From Proteus vulgaris (GTDB lineage Bacteria; Pseudomonadota; Gammaproteobacteria; Enterobacterales; Enterobacteriaceae), in NCBI RefSeq assembly GCF_033708015.1, contig NZ_CP137920.1, positions 2,170,001 to 2,234,000 on the forward strand: a stretch of DNA of 64,000 nt, given 5' to 3'. Made by a program: the position numbers and the translations under genes. Shown in pieces: positions 11,488 to 52,541 of the stretch. The notes below the pieces were generated by a model. The model ran no database searches. It saw only the letters and a list, made by a program, of their open reading frames with translations, and was not told the DNA's origin. The first letter of the stretch is position 1; every line of letters begins with the position of its first letter.

Positions 11488-12579
11488 ATGGGATTTAAAT
11501 GTGGTATCGTCGGTCTGCCTAACGTAGGGAAATCTACACTGTTTAATGCCTTAACTAAGGCAGGTATTGAGGCAGCCAACTTCCCATTCTGTACTATTGA
11601 GCCAAACACAGGTGTTGTTCCAATGCCTGATCCTCGCTTAGATAAACTGGCTGAAATTGTTAAACCACAGCGTATTTTACCAACAACAATGGAATTTGTT
11701 GATATTGCGGGTTTAGTAAAAGGGGCATCTAAAGGTGAAGGTTTAGGTAACCAATTCCTGACAAATATTCGTGAAACTGAAGCGATTGGTCATGTGGTTC
11801 GTTGTTTTGAAAATGACAATATCATTCACGTTGCAGGTAAAGTTGATCCTGCTGAAGATATCGAAACTATCAATACTGAATTAGCCCTTTCTGACTTAGA
11901 CACCTGTGAACGTGCAATGCACCGCAATCAGAAAAAAGCCAAAGGTGGCGATAAAGTTGCTAAAGCAGAAATGGAAGTGTTAGAAAAATGCTTACCGCAT
12001 TTAGAAAATGCAGGTATGTTACGTGCTTTAGATTTAACTGAAGAAGAAAAAGCGACTATTCGTTATTTAAGCTTCTTAACGTTAAAACCAACAATGTATA
12101 TTGCAAACGTTAATGAAGATGGTTTTGAAAACAACCCATATCTTGAAACGGTTCGCAAGATCGCAGAAGCAGAAGGCTCTGTGGTTGTTCCTGTTTGTGC
12201 CGCGATCGAAGCGGATATTGCTGAGTTAGAAGATGCTGAACGCGAAGAATTTATGCAAGATTTAGGCATTGAAGAACCTGGCTTAAACCGTGTTATTCGC
12301 GCAGGTTACGCACTACTGAACTTACAAACTTATTTCACTGCGGGCGTTAAAGAAGTACGTGCATGGACAATCCCTGTTGGTGCAACCGCACCACAAGCGG
12401 CGGGTAAAATCCACACTGACTTTGAGAAAGGCTTTATCCGCGCTCAAACTATCGCTTATAACGATTTTATCACTTACGGTGGTGAACAAGGCGCTAAAGA
12501 AGCAGGTAAAATGCGTGCAGAAGGTAAAGAATATATCGTTCAAGATGGCGATGTCATGAACTTCTTATTTAATGTGTAA
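11488..12579 (+). CDS. ychF: Redox-regulated ribosome-binding ATPase YchF (Obg family)
   Basis: A 363-residue Obg-type P-loop NTPase with G1 GLPNVGKST (9-17), G3 [20 protein letters not shown], a coiled-coil middle part, and the altered G4 motif NVNE (in [11 protein letters not shown]) instead of NKxD, which explains the ATP preference of this subfamily. The C-terminal TGS domain ([29 protein letters not shown]) binds ribosomal RNA. It is the last core gene before the island. Confidence 0.96.
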
Positions 12580-12794: not shown

Positions 12795-13985
12795 ATGCTT
12801 ACTGATACAAAATGCCGAACTGCAAAACCTAAAGAAAAACTTTATCGTATCAATGATTTCAACGGTTTGTACCTTGAAGTGAAACCTAATGGTAAGAAAG
12901 CATGGCGATTCCGTTTTCAAATAAATGGAAAATCAAGCATGTTCGCATTGGGTAACTACCCATTAGTAACACTAGCTGAAGCCAGATCTAAATGCGATGA
13001 GGCCAGAAAACTCGTATCAGAAGGAATTAATCCAACACAAGCTAAGCAACTAGACAAGATCAGAAAAGCGAACGAATCTGCGAATACATTTCAAATCATC
13101 GCAAAAGAATGGTTACAAATGAAAGATTGGGCTGATGTGACAAAATATCGTCGCCTTGATATGTTGGAGCGCATTGTATTTCCTTCTATCGGTGCATTAC
13201 CAATAAGAGAAATTACATCTCACCACATTCTCAAAATATTGCAGCGTGAAGTTCAAAGAGGCGCTCCAACGGTTGCTGCTGAAGCTAAACGGACGATATC
13301 CTCGATTTTTGAATTTGCGGTTGCCACATTAAGAGCTGATAGTGATCCAGTATGGGCAATAAGAAAAGCTCTCCCAGCAAACAAAACACAACATAAAAAA
13401 GCCCTCACTACGGATCAAATAGGTCAACTACTCAATAACTTTGATAATAGCCGTGGCACCTTTCAACTGAACTATTGTATGTGGTTAATGTGGTGGACGC
13501 TTTCTCGTCCATCTGAAGTCGCTGAGGCTGAATGGTCTGAATTCGATCTTGATAATGCACTTTGGACTATCCCAGCTGAGCGTATGAAAGCACGAAGAGA
13601 ACATATTGTTCCTCTGCCTACACAAGCTATTACGATTCTAAAATCTCTTTATGGTTTTACTGGTAACCGCAAACATTTATTTCCCGGTCGTGATTCTTGC
13701 CATAAACCAATGTCCACTAACTCACTAAGGCAATTTCTTAAAACGAGAGGTTGGAGTGGTATATATAGCCCTCATGCGACACGCACAACAGGCAGCACAC
13801 GATTAAATGAGCTTGGATATAGACCTGATGCTATAGAAGCACAATTAGCCCATATGGACTCAAATAGCGTTAGACGTTCATATAACCATGCAACTTATCT
13901 TGAAGAGCGAAAAATCATGATGCAAGATTGGGCTGATAAACTCGATATTTGGGTAAAACGGGCCAACCTTGAATCAAATTCATGA
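12795..13985 (+). CDS. P4-type tyrosine integrase
   Basis: A 396-residue site-specific recombinase. The N-terminal DUF4102/arm-binding domain is clear (LTDTKCRTAKPKEKLYRINDFNGLYLEV to FALGNYPLVTLAEAR), followed by a core-binding domain and the catalytic domain with Arg in TLSRPSEV, HATRTT, LAHMDSNSVRRSYNH and the nucleophile-region Tyr. The usual GH before the last Arg-region is LAHM here, as in many P4-type integrases. It points into the island from its left end, 65 bp from the direct repeat. No tRNA was seen next to it, so the target is not obvious. Confidence 0.93.
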   Translation: MLTDTKCRTAKPKEKLYRINDFNGLYLEVKPNGKKAWRFRFQINGKSSMFALGNYPLVTLAEARSKCDEARKLVSEGINPTQAKQLDKIRKANESANTFQIIAKEWLQMKDWADVTKYRRLDMLERIVFPSIGALPIREITSHHILKILQREVQRGAPTVAAEAKRTISSIFEFAVATLRADSDPVWAIRKALPANKTQHKKALTTDQIGQLLNNFDNSRGTFQLNYCMWLMWWTLSRPSEVAEAEWSEFDLDNALWTIPAERMKARREHIVPLPTQAITILKSLYGFTGNRKHLFPGRDSCHKPMSTNSLRQFLKTRGWSGIYSPHATRTTGSTRLNELGYRPDAIEAQLAHMDSNSVRRSYNHATYLEERKIMMQDWADKLDIWVKRANLESNS

Positions 13986-17133: not shown

Positions 17134-18936
17134 TCATATTAAATTTGAGTCATATGTAAAATTCAACTGGTGTAGGACTTCTGTAGGCTGACGCGCTCTT
17201 CTATATTGACCATAACCAGTCATCCGTCCTGTTTCTGAAATAAGATGTAGGTTCTTTCTAGCTCTAGAGCCAATTACATACAGCAACTTTTTAGCACTTT
17301 CAATCGAAGGGTCATTAAAATTCGGAACCAAATCTTGAAGAAGGCCGAAGGATATCACAACATCATATTCACCGCCCTTTACTCCGTGTATTGTTGACAC
17401 TTTGATACCAGTTCTGGGTTTAAATGCTTTGCGAAACGCCTCAATGTCTGTTGCAAATAATGCATTCTCGTTCCTTAGCCTACAAATCCTATCCTGTGTA
17501 CTATTGAAGAATGATTCGTGATGCTCCTTTAGCATAGGATATAGCATGAAATCTATTCCCAATTCTCCAAATAGTGCTTCAAAGAATGCTCGAAGATAAG
17601 CGATGCCGTCGTCTTCATCTATCGAAATAGAGTTGACAGTCTTTAGAAACTGTTTTGGTGGGATCGAATGAACATCGACAAGTGCAAGTTCCATATCATA
17701 TAAAATATCAGATGCCCATCGAAGACGCTTAACATACATATTAGGCGATGGCTCTGTTAGGATAACTTGAGTCAACTTGAACCAAAAGTTATCTATATCT
17801 CTTGAAAAAGGAACAAGACCAGGTCCATCGAAACTATACTGAGGCAACCTGTTTACCAAGTTACGAGTTAGTGCTGCCAAGTGCATCCACCAAGGTGCAA
17901 TGACGCATATTTCCTTCTCTAAGATGCCCAGATTTTGAACACTATACTCAATGTGTCGGCTGACTTGCTCCACCAAGTTATCCTTATGAGTAATCTGATC
18001 ATAGGTAATAATACTGGGATAATCGCGATGTTCACCTTCAGCAACAGTGGCACTAGGGGTGACATTAAAATTACGATAATAATCTATGATCTTTCTAGAG
18101 CTTCTATAGTTCTTATCTAATGCCATTGGAGTAAATGACACTTCTGCTAACTGCTCAAGTTCCAACTGTGTTATTGCGTAACCACCGAGCGAACCGTAGA
18201 TAGCTTGGTTTGGATCACCAACAATGAAGGTTCTCACCCGACCTTGGCTAGCTTTTATAATACTCGCAACAATTGAATATTGTACCTCCTTGGTATCTTG
18301 ATATTCATCAACAAGAATGTAAGAGAACAAATTTGCCAGTATCTTAGCAATAGATGAATTACTAGATAGAATTTCATGAGCAAAATATAGCATTTGCTCA
18401 AAGTCGATTAGGTCATTTTCTGCAAGATGCCTGTGATAATCATCTAATACTCGTCTTGCTAGTGAAATTTTACTTCCAGCGCAAGTTAAAGTTAATCCTC
18501 GAGGAGTGTAGAAATGGCTACACTCTCCATATCTAATACGTTCAGTACGAATACTAGAGCATATTTGAGATATTATTTCTTCAGAATCATAAGAGTTAAC
18601 TATTTTAAATCCGTTTTTCAGCTTGTCATGATATAGGCCATATGGCTTCAATATCCATTCTAAACAAAATGCATGAATAGTACCGATCCACAACTGAGAT
18701 GTATCTACACCAAGAATTTCAATTCGCTCGCGAATCTCATCAGCTGCTCTATGCGTGTAGGTAATGGCCACAACCCATTTTTTAGGATCCTCTAAACCTG
18801 AAAGCTCAGAAGCTATTTTATAGGTAAGAGTCCTAGTTTTGCCACTTCCTGGACATGCAACCAAAAACACATTATTCGGCTCGTTAATCGCTGCAATTTG
18901 TTCATCGTTTAGATCACCTTCATCCCACATAAACAT
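17134..18936 (-). CDS. UvrD/Rep-family helicase, Gabija GajB-like
   Basis: A 600-residue superfamily 1A helicase: Walker A ACPGSGKT (27-34), motif Ia AITYTHRAADEIRER, Walker B LVDEYQDT (208-215), motif III IVGDPNQAIYG, motif IV NYRSSRKI, motif V VSTIHGVKGGEYDVVI and motif VI VIGSRARKNLHL. All ATPase motifs look intact. The gene follows the OLD-family nuclease gene by 2 bp, with AAGGA before its ATG, the GajA-GajB order of Gabija defence operons. It is longer than the roughly 490-residue GajB of Bacillus cereus, so it may be a divergent subtype. In Gabija, GajB is thought to sense or process DNA ends and activate GajA. Confidence 0.85.
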   Translation of the reverse strand: MFMWDEGDLNDEQIAAINEPNNVFLVACPGSGKTRTLTYKIASELSGLEDPKKWVVAITYTHRAADEIRERIEILGVDTSQLWIGTIHAFCLEWILKPYGLYHDKLKNGFKIVNSYDSEEIISQICSSIRTERIRYGECSHFYTPRGLTLTCAGSKISLARRVLDDYHRHLAENDLIDFEQMLYFAHEILSSNSSIAKILANLFSYILVDEYQDTKEVQYSIVASIIKASQGRVRTFIVGDPNQAIYGSLGGYAITQLELEQLAEVSFTPMALDKNYRSSRKIIDYYRNFNVTPSATVAEGEHRDYPSIITYDQITHKDNLVEQVSRHIEYSVQNLGILEKEICVIAPWWMHLAALTRNLVNRLPQYSFDGPGLVPFSRDIDNFWFKLTQVILTEPSPNMYVKRLRWASDILYDMELALVDVHSIPPKQFLKTVNSISIDEDDGIAYLRAFFEALFGELGIDFMLYPMLKEHHESFFNSTQDRICRLRNENALFATDIEAFRKAFKPRTGIKVSTIHGVKGGEYDVVISFGLLQDLVPNFNDPSIESAKKLLYVIGSRARKNLHLISETGRMTGYGQYRRARQPTEVLHQLNFTYDSNLI

Positions 18937-18938
18937 GA

Positions 18939-21149
18939 TTATATCCTTGCTAATATGTCGTTTTGCTCAGAAGGTAAATCGTTCATTAGGTCGATTTTGA
19001 GTGTAGCTATGTCGCCATCGACTGGATTAAAGGCTTCCCACTTAGGAGTGAATATTAATAAACCAGTCTCATATGGGGTCAAGTATGTTTCCCATTGCTG
19101 CCTTAGAGCCGTATCACCATTTGCATTCAGACTTTCGATAATTTTTCTACCAAATTTGACATGTTCAATGACTGAGTCGTAACGGTGTTTAAGTATTTTG
19201 AAAGTAAGTCCTGCATTGAAGTCTCCATGCGCAAACTTGATGGCATCAAAAATGTACTCTGGAATAGCTACTTTAAAGTCAACCACTTTACCTAGCGTAA
19301 GAGCAAACCAACCTTTACCTTGATAGTTTGCCATAGTTAATGCTCTTGAACCTGAGATAGCAATATCAGTTGAAGATAGTTCAGTTATAGCAGTATTTAT
19401 CGTAGCTTGTTGAGTGTACACATCTCCAACAATGCTCTTGAGGTAATTGCTGTTGGATGACTGTATAAAATCAACCTCAAACGTATGATCTGCATAAAAA
19501 ACCGAAATCCAAGGGTTATTTTGACAGAAGTAATCAAGCCTACTTTTACGAGCAAGGCCAGCTTCTTGAGAGCCAAGGGCTTTCTCTTTCTTCTTTTTAT
19601 CTGAGTCACTATCTGTAGAATAAATCGTTGTATCAAAGAAGGCTTCATCTAGGTCAGTGATAATGCTGCAACGCTTTTTGATTCTTTCATTATCAAATAA
19701 CATTGCAATATTCTCGAAACCAGTACTTCTGATGTTGACTAGAGTGATACCAACTTCATCTAAGCTCAATCCTAAAACTTTTTTCATTAAAATAGGAATA
19801 AGGATCTCTTCGGCATCTCCTTCGACTAAAACAACACTTCGGGCAAATAGTAAGTTACTACGGATGGCATCAAGGTAACGTTGAACGAATCCCACTTTCT
19901 CGTCACTAAGCCCTACGGAAGGTTGAAATACTTCGCAAATACTATCAACAAAACCTATAATATTCATACTCTTAATATTACTCACTTCTGATATGTGAGA
20001 TGAGTGAGTTGAATATATTATCTGAGTGTTTTCATAGTTAATGTTGTCGAAAAGTGATTTTTGAATGTGGGTGTGGATGTGTGCTTCTGGTTCTTCAATT
20101 AGTAAAAAGTTAGCAATAGATTGATTTGCTTTTTGGTATTTGAATTCTAGTAGCTTTAGTGTGAGAAAAAGTAGGTTAGCACCGCCTAAACTCATTTCAT
20201 GTATGGTCCCCTCGTAACCATCATTTGACTCTGCGACAAAGAGTTTTAATGATTGAAATAACTGATCAGACTCGTTACTCAAACTAGAGCGAATAGAGAT
20301 TGAATTAGGTGAATATGTATCTCCTACTGTATCACTAATAGTAGTTACAATATCATCACGAACGTCACAAATGTCTGATAGAGCTTCAATCTCATTATTT
20401 AATGTCTCAATTAAATCTGCAATAGGCTGGAAATCAGTTTGATTAATATTTCCGGATTTACCCTTTAATAGTGTGAGCAAAGGATTGGTTCTATTGCTAT
20501 GGAAATCCGATACTACATCCCTTAGTGCTTTAATAAAGGTAAATGAAACTTCATTCGGCATATTGAGAATGTTCGGCAACCGTATACCAATGTCAGGGTT
20601 ATTTAATACCCTAGGAAAATCGACTCTCTCGAAGTCTCCAACTATACTTTTGTATACAACTGGGTCATTGAAATCAGCGATACTTTTGCCAGTAAGGACG
20701 GTTTCATAATCATCAATAGTTATACAATCCAAATACCTTTCTAGAGCAACTATATCCCCTATTGTAAGTTGTGCCAGTGCTTGACGGATGTTTGCTTTAG
20801 GTCTGAAAATCAGATTGTATGTTGCTCTAGTAACAACTTCATCCTCCGCATTCCCTGCACCATGAAGAAATAAAGACTGACTAGCTTCATCACTAGCAAT
20901 GTCATTAAACTCAATACTAATAACGATCCAGTGACCACGCCAATCACCTAATGTCCTACAAAAGTCGCCTTCAGCAAGCTTAGTTGCCGAGCGAGGCATT
21001 GAATTATCAAGCAGCAATCTCATCGCTCGGAATAAGTTAGTCTTACCAGAACCATTCTCGCCAATAATTGTATTTATTCCCTTATTAAATAGAAACTTTA
21101 CGTTTTTAAAATTTCTGTAATTTACTAGAGAGAGCTTTGTGATGTGCAT
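18939..21149 (-). CDS. OLD-family ATPase/TOPRIM nuclease, Gabija GajA-like
   Basis: A 736-residue protein with an ABC/SMC-like ATPase: Walker A GENGSGKT (30-37), signature MSLGGAN (319-325), Walker B FLLIEEPEAHIH (348-359) and switch STHSSH (380-385). The TOPRIM domain follows, with VLVEGDAEE (440-448) and TDLDEAF (498-504), the metal-binding Glu and Asp residues of OLD nucleases. Nucleases of this type cut or nick DNA and are active only when nucleotide levels fall in GajA. Family length is usually 550-600; here about 150 residues are extra, mainly C-terminal. It is the first gene of the pair; AGAGGA precedes the ATG. Confidence 0.85.
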   Translation of the reverse strand: MHITKLSLVNYRNFKNVKFLFNKGINTIIGENGSGKTNLFRAMRLLLDNSMPRSATKLAEGDFCRTLGDWRGHWIVISIEFNDIASDEASQSLFLHGAGNAEDEVVTRATYNLIFRPKANIRQALAQLTIGDIVALERYLDCITIDDYETVLTGKSIADFNDPVVYKSIVGDFERVDFPRVLNNPDIGIRLPNILNMPNEVSFTFIKALRDVVSDFHSNRTNPLLTLLKGKSGNINQTDFQPIADLIETLNNEIEALSDICDVRDDIVTTISDTVGDTYSPNSISIRSSLSNESDQLFQSLKLFVAESNDGYEGTIHEMSLGGANLLFLTLKLLEFKYQKANQSIANFLLIEEPEAHIHTHIQKSLFDNINYENTQIIYSTHSSHISEVSNIKSMNIIGFVDSICEVFQPSVGLSDEKVGFVQRYLDAIRSNLLFARSVVLVEGDAEEILIPILMKKVLGLSLDEVGITLVNIRSTGFENIAMLFDNERIKKRCSIITDLDEAFFDTTIYSTDSDSDKKKKEKALGSQEAGLARKSRLDYFCQNNPWISVFYADHTFEVDFIQSSNSNYLKSIVGDVYTQQATINTAITELSSTDIAISGSRALTMANYQGKGWFALTLGKVVDFKVAIPEYIFDAIKFAHGDFNAGLTFKILKHRYDSVIEHVKFGRKIIESLNANGDTALRQQWETYLTPYETGLLIFTPKWEAFNPVDGDIATLKIDLMNDLPSEQNDILARI

Positions 21150-21286: not shown

Positions 21287-21994
21287 TTATGCTTGGCCTT
21301 TTGCAATAGCCAAAACATGGTCAATATTGTCAATTAGCTCTGCGTTTATAGCAGAAAATTGGCTATCTAGCGGCTGCTTTAGTTCTTTATTAGTGCCGAA
21401 ATCATCTTTATTCGCAGTAAAGAATATGAGCTTCTTAGAAAATCCAGAAGCCCTTAATTTTTGGCCAAGCTCCAGAAAACACTCAACAATCTCACAATCT
21501 TTTGGTTCAGGTTTTCCCTTTCTGGCTGGTGCCTCATTTTTTCTAACTCTCTGCATTGCTCGCAATGTGTGAGCATCTTTTCTCTCTAACGAAAGGCATG
21601 TATCTAAGACTGTTTTAGAAAGTGATCGTATATGCGCAGAGATATTTAAAGATGATATTTTCTGTGGCAAAGAGTAAGAAGCATTAAGTAGAGTATTACT
21701 AACCGTGAGCATAGATGAAATATTACGATCTATTTTTAAGACTTCTCTCTCCATAGTTGCAATTACAGAATCTATATTATCGTTCCATTCTTCCCTTACA
21801 TTTTGGCTTGTAGTTAGCCAAATATCATTCCCATGCAGCTTGCTAAGTTCGAGTGCTGAAATAGCGTACCTCTCAGATAAACTGTTCATGTGTAATGAAT
21901 TGATGATATTAAGAATGGAGCAGGTATCAATGAAGAGTACAGGACTCTCTTTTTGCATAATGTCATTACAAATATCACTAACACTTCTACACAT
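21287..21994 (-). CDS. PIN-like domain protein (predicted RNase)
   Basis: A 235-residue protein with the acidic pattern of PIN-like nucleases of the DUF4935 type: FIDTCSILNI (Asp23), NVREEW (Glu68/69), KDCEIVECFLEL (Asp166, Glu168) and FFTANKDDF (Asp197/198). PIN domains cut RNA in toxin-antitoxin systems and other stress pathways. A strong GGAGG lies before the ATG, inside the end of the upstream gene, so the two are coupled. The stop is 137 bp from the Gabija-like operon on the same strand, and both could belong to one defence cluster. Function is predicted from motifs only. Confidence 0.75.
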   Translation of the reverse strand: MCRSVSDICNDIMQKESPVLFIDTCSILNIINSLHMNSLSERYAISALELSKLHGNDIWLTTSQNVREEWNDNIDSVIATMEREVLKIDRNISSMLTVSNTLLNASYSLPQKISSLNISAHIRSLSKTVLDTCLSLERKDAHTLRAMQRVRKNEAPARKGKPEPKDCEIVECFLELGQKLRASGFSKKLIFFTANKDDFGTNKELKQPLDSQFSAINAELIDNIDHVLAIAKGQA

Positions 21995-22630: not shown

Positions 22631-23122
22631 AACAATCCTCGATTTCAAAATCTGGGATATTGCCCATCGGGAAGAATAACAGTGTCTTTTCAGCAGACAT
22701 TGTCTATATAATATTTTCATAAAATACAGACACCATGCAGCGACATACTGTTCTATTGGTCTTATATTTCCTTGCACTCACAAATTTCAGAACATATCTG
22801 TATAGTCATAAGTGCTCAACTAAGCTCATAGTCTACTATCAGAGAAAGTTGGTCAAGAATATGACATGAGAAAGTGGTTAGGAGTCTCAAACTAAACGAT
22901 TTTGGGGCAGAAGAGAGCCAGAGTAACATTTCGGATCGGCTGCATCGTGATTTGAATTTGGCGAGTTGAGTCCAGAGTAGTGCAATTCAACTGTATTTTC
23001 TCAGACTTGATCTGATGGCTTTCACTGGCAGCATACAATCAAATCTGACAGTCTGCTTTGAGAGAGAAGCGGGAGTTTGCGTATTCAACAGTGTTACAGT
23101 TGACATTGCTTTGACCGAAAGG
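22631..23122. other. Intergenic region before the PIN pair
   Basis: About 490 bases with no ORF I would support. It should contain the promoter of the PIN pair and the end of the HEPN-like gene. No clear terminator hairpin or repeat seen. Confidence 0.4.
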
Positions 23123-23746
23123 TTAGAAGTCACTCAATAAGGTACGCAGGCTCTTGAAAACTTCTTCATGAGGATTTTCAACAATATATTCCTTTAACTT
23201 CCTTACTTGTGCCATTAGAGCCACAGTGTCATCCTCGTCAGGCGTAATACCATAAGGCTCGCTTGATTCGAACACACCATCTACTCGGCGGAAGAACACT
23301 CTTAACGCTTGCATTATCAATTTCGTCGATAACGGATGAATGTTTTCATAATTTTGATAACCCGTGCTTGCACCTTTTTGCTTTGCCGAATGATGGAAAC
23401 CAATAGTATTTCTGATTATTGTAAGTGGCTTTTCGATTTTTTCCCATTGCTCCAAAACCAAATCCCTAGCCCCATGCGCATCTGGTGGAAGGTGAGGTAA
23501 AATTTCCTCAGTTATTTTTCTGAAGTTGACAGCACTAGGATCAAAGAGACTAAAGATAAATGAGTAGTAAGCAATAAGTAATGTATGAGTAGTCTGGAAC
23601 ACAATAATGTCATTGAGACATGTTTTATCATTTCCTGCAAGTACTTCCCTATTAAGGAAAGTATTATATGCCACCCTCATCTCGATCGTTCGAGAAAAAC
23701 GATGCCTTAGCATCTGAAGAGCTTCAGGCTCAACTAGCTTAGTCAT
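23123..23746 (-). CDS. HEPN-like protein of unknown function
   Basis: A 207-residue, mainly helical protein. Residues 112-118 read RNTIGFH in IIRNTIGFHHSAKQKG, matching the R-(N/D/H)-x4-5-H ribonuclease signature of HEPN domains, and the surrounding helices have about the right spacing for a HEPN four-helix bundle. HEPN proteins act as RNases in toxin-antitoxin, Abi and CRISPR systems. AGGAG precedes the ATG. It is a single gene between the PIN pair and the replication module. The motif is short and the assignment needs a structural check, but the defence-rich setting fits. Confidence 0.55.
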   Translation of the reverse strand: MTKLVEPEALQMLRHRFSRTIEMRVAYNTFLNREVLAGNDKTCLNDIIVFQTTHTLLIAYYSFIFSLFDPSAVNFRKITEEILPHLPPDAHGARDLVLEQWEKIEKPLTIIRNTIGFHHSAKQKGASTGYQNYENIHPLSTKLIMQALRVFFRRVDGVFESSEPYGITPDEDDTVALMAQVRKLKEYIVENPHEEVFKSLRTLLSDF

Positions 23747-24004: not shown

Positions 24005-25504
24005 CTAACCGCTATGCTTCAACACTATCTCCAAATACTCGTGCTGCCAATCACCATCAGACAGCTTATGCAAGCTCACAAATCCATCATGTTCTAATGC
24101 ACAAACACCGCTGTGTGAACTCACATAATCATAGACTGCACGGCTTTCTAGTCCTTGAATCATATGGGCAAGCAACTTTCGCTTCATCTTTTTACTATCT
24201 TTAGTCCATTTTTTCCACTCACCGCTATGTAACTTCCTCCACGTTGTGTTAAATGGATGTCCTACCGCATTTGTAACACATAACCCATATCCGTTTTTCT
24301 TTCCTGTATTTAGATACTCGTCAAGAAGCAGGTTTAAACTGTTACAAAGTTCTTTTGTTTCTAATTCCCAATGTTTCAGCATTTCTGATACATAATCGTC
24401 GGAATAAAGCTTTTTTAGCTTTTTCACCATATTCCCCTTAGGCGAAAAATTAACTATTCCAGCATTAAATATAGTGCCGTAGCGGATAGTTTTAACGAGC
24501 GCATCATCTACCCCTAGCGTATCTTTGATAAAGTCGGTTTCTAATACAGATAGTGAATCGGTGCTAATGCCATATTTCTTGAATTCTTGCTCTAAGATAG
24601 CTAACTGACACCCTTTAATATCATAATTGTACCCGTTGGCTAAACATGCCCATTTCATCTTGCTGGGTAAATATTGAAAGCCTGTACCTATCTCAAAAGA
24701 ACGGCTTCCCACTTTGGCGGTTTTATACGCTTGTCGATATTCAATAATCAATGGCGTTTTGCTAATTATCTTGACGCCCACCTCCATCAAATGAGAGATA
24801 AAATTAAAATAAAAGCTCTTATTCTTTGCGGTAGGATGGTCATTACAATATGCTTGTAGTTTATCAAGGTTGATAGGTAATGCTTCGAGTTGTTGATACG
24901 CACTGATAATACGCTGTCTAAAATTGTCATTTTCAATCGCTAGTTTATGCTTAGGCGGCTTTACGTTGTAAGAGCTTTTTAACATCAGTTTATACAGTGT
25001 TTCGGGTTTCTTACGTTTATCAAAAATATTCGTCAAATAGGTATAGCGATCTGTACGTTTAAGATAATCCTTTCGTTTACCGGGAAATAAGGCTTTAAGG
25101 ACACTTTTAGATAAAGCAAATTCTCGGCACTTATGGGTTCCATAGCTATGTTGGATAATTTTAATAATTTTAGCTTGTTCTAAGCACTCTAAACCGCGTT
25201 CTAAGCCTAAATCACGACTTTGCTTAAAAATCATAGGGAATTTCTCTTTCCCTAGTTCAGCAGGAAATGGCACAGAGTACGTCCATTTTTTATTTCCTTT
25301 AAACCTCGCTTTTTTCTTCGTATTTTTGCTAACTGTCGCACTGCAGATAATATGCTGTAAGAACAAAGCAATTGCACGGTGATATTTAGATTTTTGACGT
25401 TGATCGACGGTCTTATCAAAGGGAACACTCAAAACAATCGCTTTATAGGCTTCAACTGTAGCTTCTGTGACAAGAATGTTATCTTCGGTGATATATGCTG
25501 TCAT
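24005..25504 (-). CDS. Family-A polymerase-like protein (PolA/T7-type palm) of a mobile element
   Basis: A 499-residue protein with no exonuclease domain but an ordered set of family-A polymerase motifs in its C-terminal half: motif A as YDIKGCQLAI with Asp295, motif B as KTIRYGTIFNAG (Lys338, Tyr342-Gly343), a GYGLCVTNAVGHPF segment like the pol I GYV.T..GR loop, HMIQGLESRAVYDYV like pol I MQGTAADII, and motif C as LEHDGFVSL with His472-Asp473. Both catalytic Asp residues are thus present. The N-terminal 250 residues are basic and helical and unlike known pol I domains. It lies downstream of a Rep_trans-like initiator on the same strand. DNA polymerase, primase or RNA polymerase activity are all possible. 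Confidence 0.7.
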   Translation of the reverse strand: MTAYITEDNILVTEATVEAYKAIVLSVPFDKTVDQRQKSKYHRAIALFLQHIICSATVSKNTKKKARFKGNKKWTYSVPFPAELGKEKFPMIFKQSRDLGLERGLECLEQAKIIKIIQHSYGTHKCREFALSKSVLKALFPGKRKDYLKRTDRYTYLTNIFDKRKKPETLYKLMLKSSYNVKPPKHKLAIENDNFRQRIISAYQQLEALPINLDKLQAYCNDHPTAKNKSFYFNFISHLMEVGVKIISKTPLIIEYRQAYKTAKVGSRSFEIGTGFQYLPSKMKWACLANGYNYDIKGCQLAILEQEFKKYGISTDSLSVLETDFIKDTLGVDDALVKTIRYGTIFNAGIVNFSPKGNMVKKLKKLYSDDYVSEMLKHWELETKELCNSLNLLLDEYLNTGKKNGYGLCVTNAVGHPFNTTWRKLHSGEWKKWTKDSKKMKRKLLAHMIQGLESRAVYDYVSSHSGVCALEHDGFVSLHKLSDGDWQHEYLEIVLKHSG

Positions 25505-25556
25505 TTCAATTTACCATGTTGTTAATAGTAAATTGAATTACGCAAATGCATTTTTA

Positions 25557-25584
25557 ATGGGGGTTACCGCTAACCCCATTTTTT
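25557..25584 (+). terminator. Hairpin with T-run in the rep-pol gap
   Basis: ATGGGGGTTA (25557-25566) pairs with TAACCCCAT (25571-25579) around CCGC, with one bulged G, followed by six T. It reads best as a plus-strand terminator although the flanking genes are on the minus strand, so it may instead be part of an origin or an attenuator. Confidence 0.4.
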
Positions 25585-25773
25585 AGTAGGTGATTAGAAA
25601 AACCGAGAAAGCGTCAAATACCCGTGCCAGCTACTCAAAACGATCCGTTAAGACGAACAACTCGCGGTCTAGGCGAAAATAGCTACCCCCCAATATCCCA
25701 CGCTATAGCCATATATAGATAACGTTATTATTCATAGCCATTATGCTTATGATGCTTGCTAAAACTTGCTGTT

Positions 25774-25790
25774 ATGCTGGTAACCAGCAT
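25774..25790. repeat. Perfect 17-bp palindrome downstream of rep
   Basis: ATGCTGGTAACCAGCAT is an 8-bp perfect inverted repeat around one A. It lies 83 bp beyond the rep stop codon. Possible Rep nick site, operator or cruciform; function not known. Confidence 0.5.
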
Positions 25791-25872
25791 TGATATATAC
25801 ATATATTATTATGTTGAGTCGCCACACAATACCGCCGCAGCGACCCAACACCATTACCCGTGATACAGGCTA

Positions 25873-26979
25873 CTAATAACCGTGTTTGCGAGCCCACTTT
25901 TCACGCAAACTCTTCTGCCAAAGAGCATCATTGCCAAGAATGCCGAGCTTCTCAACCAATAAATGAAAGTCGTACCAAATTTCATCTTTATCGAAAAGAT
26001 CAACTTGATTGTTTTTCAATCTATTATCTAGACGTTTTAAGATCTTTTTAGCCTCCTTTGGGTTGGTTTTATTCACATAATCGCGTAGCTCAGGTAATAT
26101 CATGCCCGACAGTAACAACTCCCAATCTAAATCCCCTTCTTTGGTACACAGTGGCTTTTTATAGAACCCAATACGTTCCAGCAAATTGTGAAGATTGCGA
26201 ATATCTCGTAATAATAGCGCTTTACATCTCGGTTTATAACGAACTTCTAAGCGCAGGAAGCGGCGGTAATCCTGTATTTCGCGCCAATTAGTGATTATCA
26301 GTTGTAGATCTTTATCATGTAAAGTGTCTAAGTCATCACCAACATCCAGCTTCTCATAGCAAGAGGCGTGATACTCTGATTTATTGCTACCAAGCCGTTG
26401 CCCTTGAAACTCTCCTTCACTTGAGTAACGTTCGCCACAACATGCCCCCTTAAAACCAATATGATAGTCTGAGAGACGCATATCATATATGTCTAAAGCA
26501 TAATCAATGCGAGTCACCCATGCGCTTTTCAATATTTTATACAGATACTTACCTAGGCGCTTCTTCTTTCCTAAATAAAGAACTAATTTATTAATATCAT
26601 CAACAGTAAAATGTTGAGGACTAAATTCAAACCTAACAGCACCTCTTCCTTGATATTTATCTGTTTTCTTAAAATCCATTTCCGTCGGCTTATAATAGAT
26701 CATAAATGCTTGCTTCGGATTATATTTGTTTTTCACCTTAACTTGATAGCGATAAAGTTTCTTAATATATTTACTTTTCGTTTTTCTTCTTCTAATTGAA
26801 TAAAAACGACTGCCTTTCATCTTATTTAATCTATCGAACAATTCATCGGTATCATCAATTTCAAGATCACCTACAATACTAAGTTTATCTATTCTATGCA
26901 TCATTTCGTAATGACCTAATTCATGAGGAATAGCAATTGATTTCTTCAAATTATCAATATTAGGTTTAAGGGTAGACAT
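25873..26979 (-). CDS. Rep_trans-like replication initiation protein
   Basis: About 368 residues from the ATG at 26979, which has GGGGG five bases upstream; ATGs at 26994 and 26991 would add five residues. It shows the pattern of rolling-circle initiators of phage/plasmid type (replication initiation factor family): AVRFEFSPQHF, then VTRIDYALDIYD, LGSNKSEYHASCYEKLD, and FLRLEVRYKPR with the RxExR core. Such proteins nick an origin with a tyrosine and start replication; several Tyr are candidates. The gene is rich in Lys and Tyr codons, unlike the core genes. It stands between the AlpA-type regulator and the polymerase-like gene, all on the minus strand. Confidence 0.7.
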   Translation of the reverse strand: MSTLKPNIDNLKKSIAIPHELGHYEMMHRIDKLSIVGDLEIDDTDELFDRLNKMKGSRFYSIRRRKTKSKYIKKLYRYQVKVKNKYNPKQAFMIYYKPTEMDFKKTDKYQGRGAVRFEFSPQHFTVDDINKLVLYLGKKKRLGKYLYKILKSAWVTRIDYALDIYDMRLSDYHIGFKGACCGERYSSEGEFQGQRLGSNKSEYHASCYEKLDVGDDLDTLHDKDLQLIITNWREIQDYRRFLRLEVRYKPRCKALLLRDIRNLHNLLERIGFYKKPLCTKEGDLDWELLLSGMILPELRDYVNKTNPKEAKKILKRLDNRLKNNQVDLFDKDEIWYDFHLLVEKLGILGNDALWQKSLREKWARKHGY

Positions 26980-27047
26980 AGCTACCCCCATCACTTACTT
27001 GAATATTATTATTCTCTATATAATCATATAAAGGGGTTATAACAGGC

Positions 27048-27260
27048 TTATAGATCCACATAGTTATTGCCCCCTTTTTTCACACACTCGTCGATCCACT
27101 TCTGCACTTCACTAGCTTTCCAACGAGCAGTACGCCCTGATACAGTCAAAGAATATTGCGCAGGGAACCCCCCTGCACGGATCCAGCGGTAAATTGTCGC
27201 GCGTGAGACCTGGGTGATTTCTAAAACCTGTTTCATTGTTAAAAAGTGTTCGTGTTGCAT
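27048..27260 (-). CDS. AlpA-family excisionase/transcriptional regulator
   Basis: A 70-residue winged-helix protein of the AlpA/MerR-like type: FLTMKQVLEITQVSRATIYRWIRAGGFPAQYSLTVSGRTARWKASEVQKWIDE. AlpA-type proteins activate integrase or excision genes in P4-like islands and prophages. AGGAG lies about 11 bases before the ATG. It is the promoter-proximal gene ahead of rep, and its upstream region contains five copies of a GTGAC-N-GTCAC palindrome. Confidence 0.9.
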   Translation of the reverse strand: MQHEHFLTMKQVLEITQVSRATIYRWIRAGGFPAQYSLTVSGRTARWKASEVQKWIDECVKKGGNNYVDL

Positions 27261-28707: not shown

Positions 28708-29142
28708 TTAGTGAGTTTCCCACTGAATACTGACTTCGTAACATTTCATTTTGTGGTATTGAATAAAATTGCGTTGCCACAGTTCAAACAGTGCTCCACC
28801 CTCTTCTTCATCAATATCCCCCATCATAAAATGATAGATATAACCCTGCGACCAACAAATATCGAGTTCCTTTTCAAGCTCAGGATAATAGCTCCCCATG
28901 AATGAAAAATCTGTCACATAATCAAACTGCCATTGCTCATGCAGCCGAAACAAGCGTATTTCAACAGGATGGAAGCCGCCTGTTTCAGCACTATACAATG
29001 GGTCTCGAAAATTCATTGTAACCGCCCGAACAGTGGTTAAATCAATCGCTGAGTTAACAACTGAATTGTCCAGTTCATGTAATAACAATTGGCTAAATAC
29101 TTGTGCGACAGGCAAGTGTAGCCCTGACTGATGAATAGTCAT
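28708..29142 (-). CDS. DUF2787 family protein
   Basis: A 144-residue protein with the DUF2787 core: FRDPLYSAETGGFHPVEIRLFR, WQFDYVTDFSFMGSYYPELEKELDICW and GGALFELWQRNFIQY. DUF2787 proteins are widespread in P4-like and ICE-type islands of gamma-proteobacteria; their function is unknown. It is followed by the papain-like gene, so the two may work as a pair. Confidence 0.8.
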   Translation of the reverse strand: MTIHQSGLHLPVAQVFSQLLLHELDNSVVNSAIDLTTVRAVTMNFRDPLYSAETGGFHPVEIRLFRLHEQWQFDYVTDFSFMGSYYPELEKELDICWSQGYIYHFMMGDIDEEEGGALFELWQRNFIQYHKMKCYEVSIQWETH

Positions 29143-29776: not shown

Positions 29777-32035
29777 ATGAAAAAACAATTAAATACAAAC
29801 TATCGTCTTGTCTGGAGCGCTGTCCAAAACGCGTTGATTGCCGTCTCTGAACTAACCCATGCAAAAGGTAAGAAAACAGCGGGTATCATCGCACTTTCAG
29901 CATTATCATCACTGGCTTCAATACCTGCCTTTGCCAATGATAGCCGTTGTGTCAATGGCACAACAGTGACCGATAATTGCACCGTTGAGGCTGGGGAAAC
30001 AGTGTCAAATATGACCGTTAAGGAAAATGGCAATTTACGAGTAAACGGTGAATCAAATAATACCGTTTTAACAGGACAGAAAAATCCAACCGGTTCAGGG
30101 TCGTCATTTGATGATGGAAGTCGGTATGATTCAGCGACAGAATGGGTTTATGGCACGGCGACGGGCACCATCATCAATGCAGGTGGGATCCAAAAGGTCG
30201 ACGGTGGTACAGCCGACCAATCAAAAGTCAATTATCACGGTGTATTAGAAGTTAACAACGGGGGCACAATCACTAATTCAACAGTAGGCTCTAATGATGC
30301 CGTTGATGGGTTAAAAACCGATGAAGCCTATATTTCTGTTATCGGTAATGGTAGTTCAGCTAAGAACACCCATATTAACAATGGTGGCGTTCTGAGTGCG
30401 TCAGAAGGAGCTATCGTCACGGATACAACCATCAATGCCGGAGGGCGTCTAGAACTTTCAGTGGATAATGACCTCGATAACAACGAGTTTAGGACGAATG
30501 CAGGCATAACTACAGCTAATGGTGTAACAATTAATAAAGATGGCATACTGGCGCTTGATAAGGATACAAAAGCAACCGATGTGGCCGTCAATGAAGGCGG
30601 CACCCTATGGGCTGAAAATGGCGCTATTCTTGAAAATATAACGACCGTTGGAGGAGAAACTAAAGTTCAAAATGCCACACTCACTGGTAGCAACGTCTTT
30701 AATCAGCAAGGAACATTGACCGTCTCAGGGGATGTATCTGCGGAAATCATTGAGTTGTATGATGCCAATATTCAATTTGAGGGGGCGTCTGTTTCACAAG
30801 CCTCTTATCGCCGTAACACACCAGAGTTCAATGCGGGGCATCTTACCGTGAAAGAACTGAAAGGTGAAGGTGACAATAACAACATTACTCTGCGTATAGA
30901 TGCCACATCGGGAGAGCATGACACATTACAAGTGACTGACGCTATTGACGGGCATTTTAATGTCAATATTAACAGTCAAGGTAAAGAAATAAACACATCG
31001 GCGTTAGATTCAAGTTTCATTGAAGCAAAAGGCAGTGATGCTCATACGTTCTCTGGTGATACTGATATTGGCGCTTACAACTATTCGCTTTACCAAGATG
31101 GCGATGACTGGCGGCTCCAACGCAGCGGCAATTTATCGGCATCTTCGAGCAATGCCATGATGCTCGCAAACGTCACACCAACAATTTGGGCGAGCGAATT
31201 ATCCGTCTTACGCAACCGCCTAGGCGAACTCCACGCAGATTCTGAACAAAATGGTGTGTGGCTGAAATACATAACTGCCCGTAACCGCGTTAATAATAAC
31301 CAGACAAGCTACAAACAGGACATGAACGGGTTTGTCCTCGGCGGCGATCGACAGCTTGATGTAACTAATGGAAAACTGTTCCTCGGCAGTCAGTTCGGTT
31401 ATTCCTACTCATCTCTTGATGCAGCAAGCAGCGACGGACAAGTCAAAAGTTACAGTTTAGGCCTCTATGCGACATGGTTACACAATAGCGGCTACTACGT
31501 CGATGGCGTACTCAAAGGAAATCGATTCTTTAGTGAGAATAATGCACGCTTCAATCAAGGTACATCGAAAGCCAATGATGCGACCAATGGAATTGGATTC
31601 TCTCTTGAAGGAGGGAAACATATTAATATCAATACGTACCAAATTGAACCTTATGTTCAACTCGCTGGATTCCAAGGACAAAAAACACACTACACGTTTG
31701 ATAATGATCTTCATGTTAATGCGAATGCAACCCGCTCTTTAAAAGCTGAGATAGGTACAACATTGGGTAAAGAATTTACACTACCTAATGGCGGTAATGC
31801 AAAACCTTATATTCGTCTGGCGGCAAGCCAAGAGTTTATCAAAAATAATGATGTCACTATCAATAATACCGAACGCTTTACCAATGATATGTCTGGCTTA
31901 ACGGGGAAATATGGTATTGGTATGAATACAAACATTGTTAAAGATCTGGACATGTATGGTGAATTTAATTATGCCAAAGGCAACAAGCTTGAAACACCGT
32001 ACAGTGGCACTGTGGGGATAAGATACAGTTTCTAA
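29777..32035 (+). CDS. AIDA-I/Ag43-type autotransporter adhesin
   Basis: A 752-residue type Va autotransporter. It has an extended signal peptide region (MKKQLNTNYRLVWSAVQNALIAVSELTHAKGKK) and a hydrophobic core ending in IPAFA, with likely cleavage after residue 53. The passenger (54 to about 480) is made of AIDA-like beta-helix repeats (INAGGIQKV.GGTA, VNNGGTITNSTV, INNGGVLSASEGAIVTDTTINAGG, VNEGGTLWAENGAILEN). The last ~260 residues form the membrane beta-barrel, ending GIRYSF. Such proteins mediate autoaggregation, adhesion or biofilm formation. There is no peptidase motif. It is cargo with its own promoter, followed by a hairpin. Confidence 0.88.
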   Translation: MKKQLNTNYRLVWSAVQNALIAVSELTHAKGKKTAGIIALSALSSLASIPAFANDSRCVNGTTVTDNCTVEAGETVSNMTVKENGNLRVNGESNNTVLTGQKNPTGSGSSFDDGSRYDSATEWVYGTATGTIINAGGIQKVDGGTADQSKVNYHGVLEVNNGGTITNSTVGSNDAVDGLKTDEAYISVIGNGSSAKNTHINNGGVLSASEGAIVTDTTINAGGRLELSVDNDLDNNEFRTNAGITTANGVTINKDGILALDKDTKATDVAVNEGGTLWAENGAILENITTVGGETKVQNATLTGSNVFNQQGTLTVSGDVSAEIIELYDANIQFEGASVSQASYRRNTPEFNAGHLTVKELKGEGDNNNITLRIDATSGEHDTLQVTDAIDGHFNVNINSQGKEINTSALDSSFIEAKGSDAHTFSGDTDIGAYNYSLYQDGDDWRLQRSGNLSASSSNAMMLANVTPTIWASELSVLRNRLGELHADSEQNGVWLKYITARNRVNNNQTSYKQDMNGFVLGGDRQLDVTNGKLFLGSQFGYSYSSLDAASSDGQVKSYSLGLYATWLHNSGYYVDGVLKGNRFFSENNARFNQGTSKANDATNGIGFSLEGGKHININTYQIEPYVQLAGFQGQKTHYTFDNDLHVNANATRSLKAEIGTTLGKEFTLPNGGNAKPYIRLAASQEFIKNNDVTINNTERFTNDMSGLTGKYGIGMNTNIVKDLDMYGEFNYAKGNKLETPYSGTVGIRYSF

Positions 32036-36977: not shown

Positions 36978-37475
36978 TCAAGAGAAGTTATCCATATGAT
37001 CTGCCCATTTCTGCAACCACACCTTACATTCACTCTCATAACCATATAAATCATACGTTCCTTCGATACCACTACGTGAATGCCCAAGTATCGCCTCCCC
37101 CACTTCATTGGGGCAACCTAATTTAGCTAGCCCAGTACGTACTGTTCGACGTAAATCATGAGGTGACCAATCAGGGATATCTAGCATCTTGCCTTCTTTG
37201 CGTAAACGCCACGCACATTCTGTTAGATATTTTTGTTGAATCGGCAACTTGGTTACTTGAGATGGGAAAAGATATTTATCGGAGTTCATGCGCATTGATT
37301 TCAAGTAGGTGACTGCTTGCTCGGGTAATTGCACGTATCGTTCAATTCCTGTCTTGGTTTCTTTCAAATGAATAGTTCCTTTTTCAAGATCCACATCATC
37401 CCAAGCCATTGCGCACACTTCACCAGTTCGGCAGCCTGTCCAAAGCGTCAGACGGACTGGTAATATCCGTATCAA
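36978..37475 (-). pseudogene. Tyrosine integrase remnant (catalytic domain only)
   Basis: 165 residues that begin inside the catalytic domain: LTLWTGCRTGEVCAMAWDD (catalytic Arg), HDLRRT, ILGHSRSGIEGTYDLYGY with His and Tyr, and a normal C-terminus. The arm-binding and core-binding domains (about 230 residues) are missing, the only start is TTG, and an in-frame stop lies about 20 bases further upstream. The residual protein differs clearly from the intact integrase at 12.8 kb, so it derives from another element. It faces inward from the right end of the island. Confidence 0.85.
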
Positions 37476-37669: not shown

Positions 37670-37762
37670 AATCAATAACACAAAATTAAATCAATAAAAA
37701 TCAAATAAATACACCCCGAATTAGGGTTTAATGTGTAACGACTTATATTAAATCTCATTACT

Positions 37763-51629: not shown

Positions 51630-52541
51630 ATGTTTAAAATAACATTTCGCCAAGCAGCCACGATCACAGTTTCATTAATATCTCTATTGGCATCTCCAAT
51701 ACTATGGGCTAACACCAATAATACGATTGAAGCGCAATTAAGTACGCTTGAAAAATATAGCCAAGGTCGTTTAGGCGTTGCTTTAATCAACACGGAAGAT
51801 AACTCACAAATAACATATCGGGGTGAAGAACGCTTTGCGATGGCAAGTACAAGCAAGGTTATGGCTGTTGCTGCTATTTTAAAAGAAAGTGAAAAACAAG
51901 CTGGATTATTAGATAAGAATATTACGATTACAAAATCTGATTTAGTCGCTTACAGCCCTATTACAGAAAAACATTTAGTAACAGGAATGTCTTTGGCTGA
52001 ATTAAGTGCTGCTACATTACAATATAGTGATAATACAGCAATGAACAAAATATTAGATTATTTAGGGGGTCCAGCCAAAGTCACTCAATTTGCACGCTCA
52101 ATTAATGATGTGACATATCGCCTAGATCGTAAAGAGCCTGAATTAAATACAGCAATTCATGGTGACCCTCGTGATACAACATCTCCAATTGCCATGGCTA
52201 AAAGTCTTCAAGTATTGGCATTAGGTGACGCTCTGGGCGGATCTCAACGTCAACAACTGGTTACTTGGTTAAAAGGTAATACAACAGGTGATCACAGTAT
52301 TAAAGCCGGTTTACCAAAACAGTGGATTGTTGGGGATAAAACGGGCAGTGGTGACTATGGTACGACTAACGACATTGCTGTGATTTGGCCTGACAATCAT
52401 GCACCATTAATTTTAGTCGTCTATTTCACACAACAAAGACAAGATGCAAAACACCGTAAAGATATTATTGCTAAGGTAGCAGAAATTGTAACAAAACCAT
52501 TTATCACATCACAAAAAAATAGGAATAACACGCTATTGTAA
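51630..52541 (+). CDS. Class A beta-lactamase, HugA/CumA type (inducible cephalosporinase)
   Basis: A 303-residue precursor with a signal peptide ending near PILWA (residue 27). All class A motifs are present: STSK with catalytic Ser at residue 73, YSDN (132-135), EPELN with the general-base Glu (169) and KTGSG (237-241); the Ser after KTG is typical of extended-spectrum chromosomal enzymes of Proteus. It hydrolyses penicillins and oxyimino-cephalosporins in the periplasm. The divergent AmpR-type gene and operator indicate inducible expression. The C-terminal tail ([12 protein letters not shown]) may be specific to this strain. Exact allele cannot be named without a database. Confidence 0.93.

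Follow-up and report, generated by a model that had tools for sequence, protein, structure and literature searches.

By sequence and predicted structure, an integrative island of Proteus vulgaris encodes an intact Rep_trans-type initiator and, downstream on the same strand, an intact, exonuclease-free A-family polymerase that is under selection. We consider it reasonably likely that these two genes form the replication module of the island, in which the polymerase primes and copies the displaced strand; the island is probably able to copy itself. The features concerned are listed below, with positions counted in the window, by which we mean the whole 64,000-nucleotide stretch of DNA that was analysed.

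12568..12579, no strand: left attachment core TTTAATGTGTAA, the last 12 bp of ychF and an exact repeat of 37727-37738.
12795..13985, plus strand: island tyrosine integrase, beside ychF (Pfam Arm-DNA-bind_3 1.5e-26, Phage_integrase 3.7e-23).
24005..25504, minus strand: A-family, TV-Pol-like polymerase of 499 aa (predicted model, Foldseek and VIA matches, conserved residues, dN/dS).
25505..25872, minus strand: structured gap between rep and pol (inverted repeats, fold z -3.8).
Arms 25505-25517 and 25525-25537, minus strand: hairpin immediately ahead of the pol start (inverted repeats).
25873..26979, minus strand: Rep_trans-type rolling-circle initiator, 368 aa from ATG (Tyr208, Lys210, Asp31, Asp159, Glu245).
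27048..27260, minus strand: AlpA-type regulator (Pfam Phage_AlpA, E 2.5e-12).
28708..29142, minus strand: DUF2787 backbone gene (Pfam 8.4e-40), annotated too in the E. coli islands L041, L043, L052 and L100.
37727..37738, no strand: right attachment core TTTAATGTGTAA, an exact copy of 12568-12579.

On the minus strand, transcription runs from the AlpA-type regulator through the 368-aa initiator and a 368-nt gap to the 499-aa polymerase, and the regulator therefore lies upstream, where the earlier note had put it. The same note had assigned these genes to an integrative element, a view borne out by the integrase, the AlpA gene, the 12-bp repeats and the state of the site in relatives. We compared the ychF loci of 11 genomes of the genus for presence or absence of the island. 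Three of them (L090, L092, L095) have empty sites, with ychF running into right-repeat DNA directly or within 2 bases. About 170-580 bp of other DNA separates ychF from the right-hand DNA in L091, L096 and L097; L093 shows a weaker stretch of right-hand DNA further on from ychF, L094 and L099 have no match to it within 3.2 kb at ychF, and related island DNA is present at ychF in L089 and L098.

The island also contains a Fic gene and the Gabija defence pair GajB-GajA (17134-21149), adjoined in Pfam searches by PIN_12 (21287-21994) and a weak HEPN-like match (23123-23746). An autotransporter gene (29777-32035) lies inside the island, and a beta-lactamase-family gene (51630-52541) outside it. 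Unannotated DNA in 8 of 5426 E. coli genomes matches the intergenic stretch 23000-23081 over 73-82 bp at 89-92% identity. The C-terminal piece of a second integrase (36978-37475) lies close to the right repeat, on its inner side, so the island may be composite. An Rfam scan gave no match in the window and, in L043, one chance match below threshold.

Is the 499-residue product a polymerase of family A? Its predicted model (pLDDT 89.4) gives a clear fold match, the best structural matches in Foldseek and VIA being DNA polymerases; the palm fold on which the earlier note had made its proposal depend is present. The match starts near residue 180, and all VIA matches fall within the polymerase domain. 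By sequence alone the protein aligns in register with PolA, though weakly: hhalign gives E 0.009 in local and 0.002 in global mode, as against 0.11-0.68 for decoys (reversed PolA, Rep) and 0.58 local and 0.82 global for T7-type RNA polymerases. The N-terminal half, which had been described as unknown, is partly accounted for: the polymerase match already begins at about residue 180, and residues ~35-132 look like a winged helix, judging by the order of secondary-structure elements and by weak Foldseek matches to CodY and Orc1 (E about 1).

The motifs picked out in the earlier note (Asp295, Lys338, Tyr342-Gly343, MIQG and His472-Asp473) are all in place. We aligned 70 polymerases, the window's own among them, after removing from a set of 71 the sequence of L003, whose frame held stops. 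R268, D295, K338, G451, H472 and D473 are invariant in all 70. D295 and D473 are the predicted catalytic Asp pair of the palm, and R268, flanked by model strands 260-262 and 269-271, is the beta-hairpin Arg before the palm. The signature of family A DNA polymerases (PF00476) comprises a sugar-gate Glu and the O-helix motif R-x3-K-x3-[FY]-x3-Y, and the present family carries neither the Glu nor the full motif. Its sugar-gate position 300 is Gln in 68/70 and Asn in 2/70 (Glu in Pol I); of the fingers RxxxK motif, K338 is kept throughout and the Arg, at position 334, in just 5/70, with Asp in the window; position 342 is F in 43, Y in 25 and H in 2, and position 346 is F in 65 and Y in 5. None of 66 family members matches PF00476. 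Since Arg 334 is so rare, we call the polymerase TV-Pol-like and do not place it as a TV-Pol member. No exonuclease or nuclease domain was matched by Pfam in the 499 aa, in agreement with the earlier note, and searches of Pfam, NCBIfam, PHROGs, PADLOC and PDB sequences returned no useful family, save one unnamed PHROG. The open reading frame is intact, and dN/dS is 0.07-0.17 in seven pairs with at least 78% identity; the gene is under purifying selection.

Against the 70-sequence profile, gp030 of Ma-LMM01, a 506-aa protein encoded next to a transposase, scored 24.3 bits (E 1.5e-6 in a set of 2255 sequences), compared with 7.1 bits for the best of 2000 shuffles and 5.3 for the best other phage ORF. 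By hhalign, the family aligns with gp030 at 81.5% (E 1.1e-5), whereas a Pol I profile fails to match it (0.6%, E 0.09). We infer that gp030 is the TV-Pol member named by Iyer. Against viral models, Foldseek returned virophage replication proteins (Qinghai Lake virophage, E 3.6e-4; Zamilon, 2.2e-3).

The initiator, which had been proposed to be of Rep_trans type and to precede the polymerase, is likewise an intact open reading frame, with an alternative GTG start at 26994. Tyr208, the predicted nucleophile, and Lys210, two residues on, occur in 29/29 Rep sequences and correspond by motif to Y191/K193 of RepDE. The predicted metal ligands are D31 (29/29), D159 (27/29, His in 2) and E245 (29/29). 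A branch with His in place of Asp159 is represented by P0158, P0159 and, by eye, L100:6748-7842. Equivalents of R189, T176, Y178 and E196 are lacking; position 206, where Rep_trans proteins have an Arg two before the Tyr, is Ser or Ala in 29/29, and T-x-Y-x-G is reduced to G197. Pfam Rep_trans (PF02486) matches 10/29 sequences, with a best E of 1e-4, and does not match the window's protein. As the core residues are kept while the Arg and T-x-Y-x-G are lost, we describe the protein as having a Rep_trans fold and core site within a divergent branch. The fold supports the reading of a replication module; the lost residues count against it. For Rep, dN/dS is 0.37 (window versus L006) and 0.14 (L043 versus L045), the two pairs at 88-89% identity.

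Does the pair stay together elsewhere? A survey suggested in the earlier note found conserved co-occurrence: Rep lies directly upstream on the same strand in eight of nine distinct intact polymerase loci (the window, L006, L007, L008, L043, L044, L045, L100). The nine are intact close-family polymerases with HMM E below 1e-100, found via the polymerase. L047 and L006 count as one locus, as do L052 and L041, which carry the same polymerase island; L009, L010, L011, L042, L046, L051, L053 and L054 were left out as broken or partial. L006 and L010 stem from a Proteus penneri record. Neighbouring locus tags of polymerase and Rep are AHYW_003485/003486, GY03_17985/17990 and RG734_000653/000654. A search with Rep alone gave L048, which has the polymerase and for this reason stands outside the count, and L049, which does not; the Rep relative of that polymerase-free island is L049:8841-9890.

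The ninth locus, L041 (with its twin L052), has two genes upstream of the polymerase. One encodes a 280-aa protein that carries a PHFHL motif, looks HUH-like by eye and matches no Pfam or NCBIfam family; the other encodes a DUF927 protein (E 1.5e-28) related to the SCC helicase Cch1 (E 8e-13), with a score of 47.7 bits where the cut-off is 700. In between, on the other strand, lie a restriction endonuclease and one further ORF. L044, L048 and L041 have polymerases that share 90-91% identity, and their initiators are, respectively, a Rep_trans, a Rep_trans 21% identical to that of L044, and the HUH-like type. Since initiators unrelated to one another are served by a near-identical polymerase, this enzyme probably primes and synthesises DNA and does not choose the origin. 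More distant loci L004 and L050 encode divergent 465-aa polymerases (L004:4299-5696, L050:9260-10657) with Asn at the sugar-gate position; upstream lies a 284-311-aa protein of no Pfam or NCBIfam family, and neither locus has a Rep_trans match. At the jumbo-phage loci L001, L002, L003 and L005, no Rep homologue was present among 12 flanking proteins (three each).

Polymerase matches, with broken copies and the window's genome counted, occur in 5/394 genomes of the order, 1/274 of the class (the window's own) and 3/20 of the genus. In Enterobacterales we found 154 polymerase-family proteins, annotated as hypothetical among the best 120 of the 154; jumbo phages contributed 53 records, also annotated as hypothetical, with some genomes represented twice. 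Pieces of the polymerase gene are present in 559/5426 E. coli genomes, the same 194-bp piece in 31 of the 40 records listed. Remnants of its 3' end were seen at L043:8022-8225, just downstream of the intact copy, and, near the ychF integrase, at L054:11986-12141 and L101:9001-9194. The 3' end of the gene may be a junction for cargo exchange.

The gap between the two genes had been called structured, and so it proved: its 368 nt fold with z -3.8 in the coding sense against 60 dinucleotide shuffles, and with -1.5 on the other strand. In six other loci (last 354-420 nt of the gap), the coding sense gives z between -0.9 and -4.2 and the other strand between -0.5 and -3.4; in L043 and L008 it is the other strand that folds more strongly. 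Between polymerase and initiator the coding strand has no ORF of at least 60 aa, and no helicase gene. In other islands a block of about 100 bp precedes the polymerase, 84.6-95.1% identical over 77-104 bp between L041 or L048 and L043 or L045; L044 has shorter or weaker pieces (44-50 bp at 90-91%; 81% over 104 bp versus L041). L041 and L043 share this block although their polymerases are 33% identical and their initiators unrelated, and it is thus common to islands of different initiator types, at the same place before the polymerase. No match to it was reported for the gaps of the window, L006, L007, L008 and L100. In E. coli it occurs in 3/5426 genomes at 4 places (two in NZ_LR536431), and all three genomes also have polymerase matches. 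Both the gap and, in those other islands, the block are candidates for an origin or leader.

How would such a module act? Going by the families involved, the integrase under AlpA would excise the island as a circle; Rep, to judge from its conserved site, would nick a single strand at an origin within or close to rep, and the host replisome or the island's polymerase would extend the 3' end. The winged-helix-like N-terminus would hold the polymerase at the DNA, where it would prime and copy the displaced single strand, as its kin and its swapping between initiators suggest. The island would thereby not need a host-specific single-strand origin; a host helicase would be needed. Several findings count against a replication module: the RxxxK Arg is mostly missing and Gln replaces the sugar-gate Glu, the scanned island proteins include neither a replicative helicase nor an SSB-like partner, the polymerase occurs in jumbo phages without Rep among the tested neighbours, and Rep occurs without polymerase in L049.

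Alternatively, the polymerase could be the leading-strand replicase of the element, which only extends the Rep-made 3' end by strand displacement and does not prime. The order of rep and pol on one strand would suit such an enzyme, as would a fold and register like those of Pol I and T7 DNA polymerase, not T7 RNA polymerase (hhalign values above). We think this unlikely, since a 91% identical polymerase is paired in L041 with a DUF927 helicase and an HUH-like protein, and phage versions lack Rep among the tested neighbours; the polymerase is therefore not bound to nicks made by Rep_trans. That it makes RNA, as a polymerase or as an RNA primase, a reading to which the Gln or Asn at the sugar gate and a mitochondrial RNA polymerase among the Foldseek matches (E 0.011) could point, seems to us improbable: DNA polymerases are the top structural matches. 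A T7-like RNA polymerase was rejected as nearest kin, the profile, of three sequences only, failing to align. That the polymerase is itself cargo, a defence, anti-defence or repair enzyme of islands and jumbo phages, is very improbable, for although it borders variable defence genes (Gabija in the window, restriction-modification in L043 and L100, a retron in L041) and occurs without Rep in jumbo phages, it stays beside the initiator in 8/9 loci while the cargo changes, and no PADLOC family matches it.

We return to a replication module that primes the displaced strand. Its fullest form would be a nick-initiated rolling-circle island whose own winged-helix, TV-Pol-like primase-polymerase primes the displaced strand and converts it at a DNA element of its own, with no host single-strand origin, the polymerase kind being shared with jumbo phages that may carry such islands; this we put forward tentatively, as a possibility with the balance somewhat against it. 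Rolling-circle initiation generally leaves second-strand priming to the host, and element-encoded A-family primases have so far been characterised with helicases, in Bacillota islands. If true, our proposal would join two strategies usually thought apart. It would also provide a family whose members in Enterobacterales and jumbo phages are annotated as hypothetical with a function open to testing, and hint at a way in which some defence islands may replicate and make use of jumbo phages.

Iyer, Abhiman and Aravind (2008, PMC2579912) described TV-Pols, a group of A-family polymerases that mobile elements and small viruses encode, and predicted them to act as both primase and polymerase. Compared with the portion of that paper used here, the window's enzyme is likewise a stand-alone A-family polymerase of 400-600 aa in a mobile element, without exonuclease, whose family keeps the palm Asp pair, the beta-hairpin Arg and the fingers Lys and matches the presumed member Ma-LMM01 gp030; the described link to an integrase, resolvase or transposase, or to a D5-like helicase, is seen here in the island's lambda-type integrase. 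Unlike TV-Pols, it is partnered by a Rep_trans nickase in place of a D5 helicase, of which none was seen in the island, its family has mostly lost the fingers Arg, and its N-terminus looks winged-helix-like where that of Iyer is all-helical. Of the loci examined, L041 alone has a DUF927 helicase. The same portion mentions no Enterobacterales TV-Pol, and we take the E. coli entry in its legend to be Pol I.

CcPol with MP, an enzyme related in kind, primes DNA de novo using dNTPs, and CcPol without its partner cannot prime (Bebel 2020, PMC7581432, in part); the first finding speaks for a priming replication module here, the second against it. PolA-SSB primases extended this kind of enzyme across Bacillota islands (Rice 2023, PMC10061031, in part). 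As in these systems of SCCmec and other Bacillota islands, an A-family polymerase sits in the replication operon of a defence-carrying integrative island, and L041 shares the DUF927 helicase, found in 3/18 rows of Rice's table, all of the reduced RRM polymerase class. The window's island differs in its Gram-negative hosts, in Rep_trans replacing the helicase, and in that no SSB gene is seen beside the polymerase, where PolA-SSB islands have an OB-fold SSB between polymerase and helicase.

The initiator resembles Rep_trans initiators (pT181 RepC/RepD, RepSTK1) and MOBT relaxases, as described in the parts of PMC4797284 and PMC6499999 drawn upon, in fold, catalytic Tyr, Lys, three acidic metal ligands, R-x-D-x-A-x-D and R-x-E; it differs in losing the R189, T176, Y178 and E196 equivalents and in its Gram-negative island. 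The phage divPolA2 enzymes also combine an A-family palm with a new N-terminal domain and no exonuclease (PMC11348598, in part); one member, AUR84708, scored no higher than shuffles against our family in hmmsearch and 1.5%, not significant, in hhalign. With the IntY/AlpA/RadC defence islands moved by jumbo phage (PMC12595487, in part) the window's island shares an end integrase, AlpA, defence cargo and an involvement of jumbo phages, and its E. coli relatives L041, L043, L052 and L100 share RadC. Those islands, unlike the window's, are in Pseudomonas, use a tmRNA site and encode an inovirus Gp2-like protein; the word "polymerase" is absent from the main text of that paper. A-family polymerases of mobile elements are thus already described, as TV-Pol, CcPol-MP and PolA-SSB primases, and to that extent the novelty claimed in the earlier note does not hold. 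Among the matches listed in a literature search by title or abstract start, no paper paired Rep_trans with such a polymerase, and it is this pairing, together with this branch of the polymerase, that looks undescribed.
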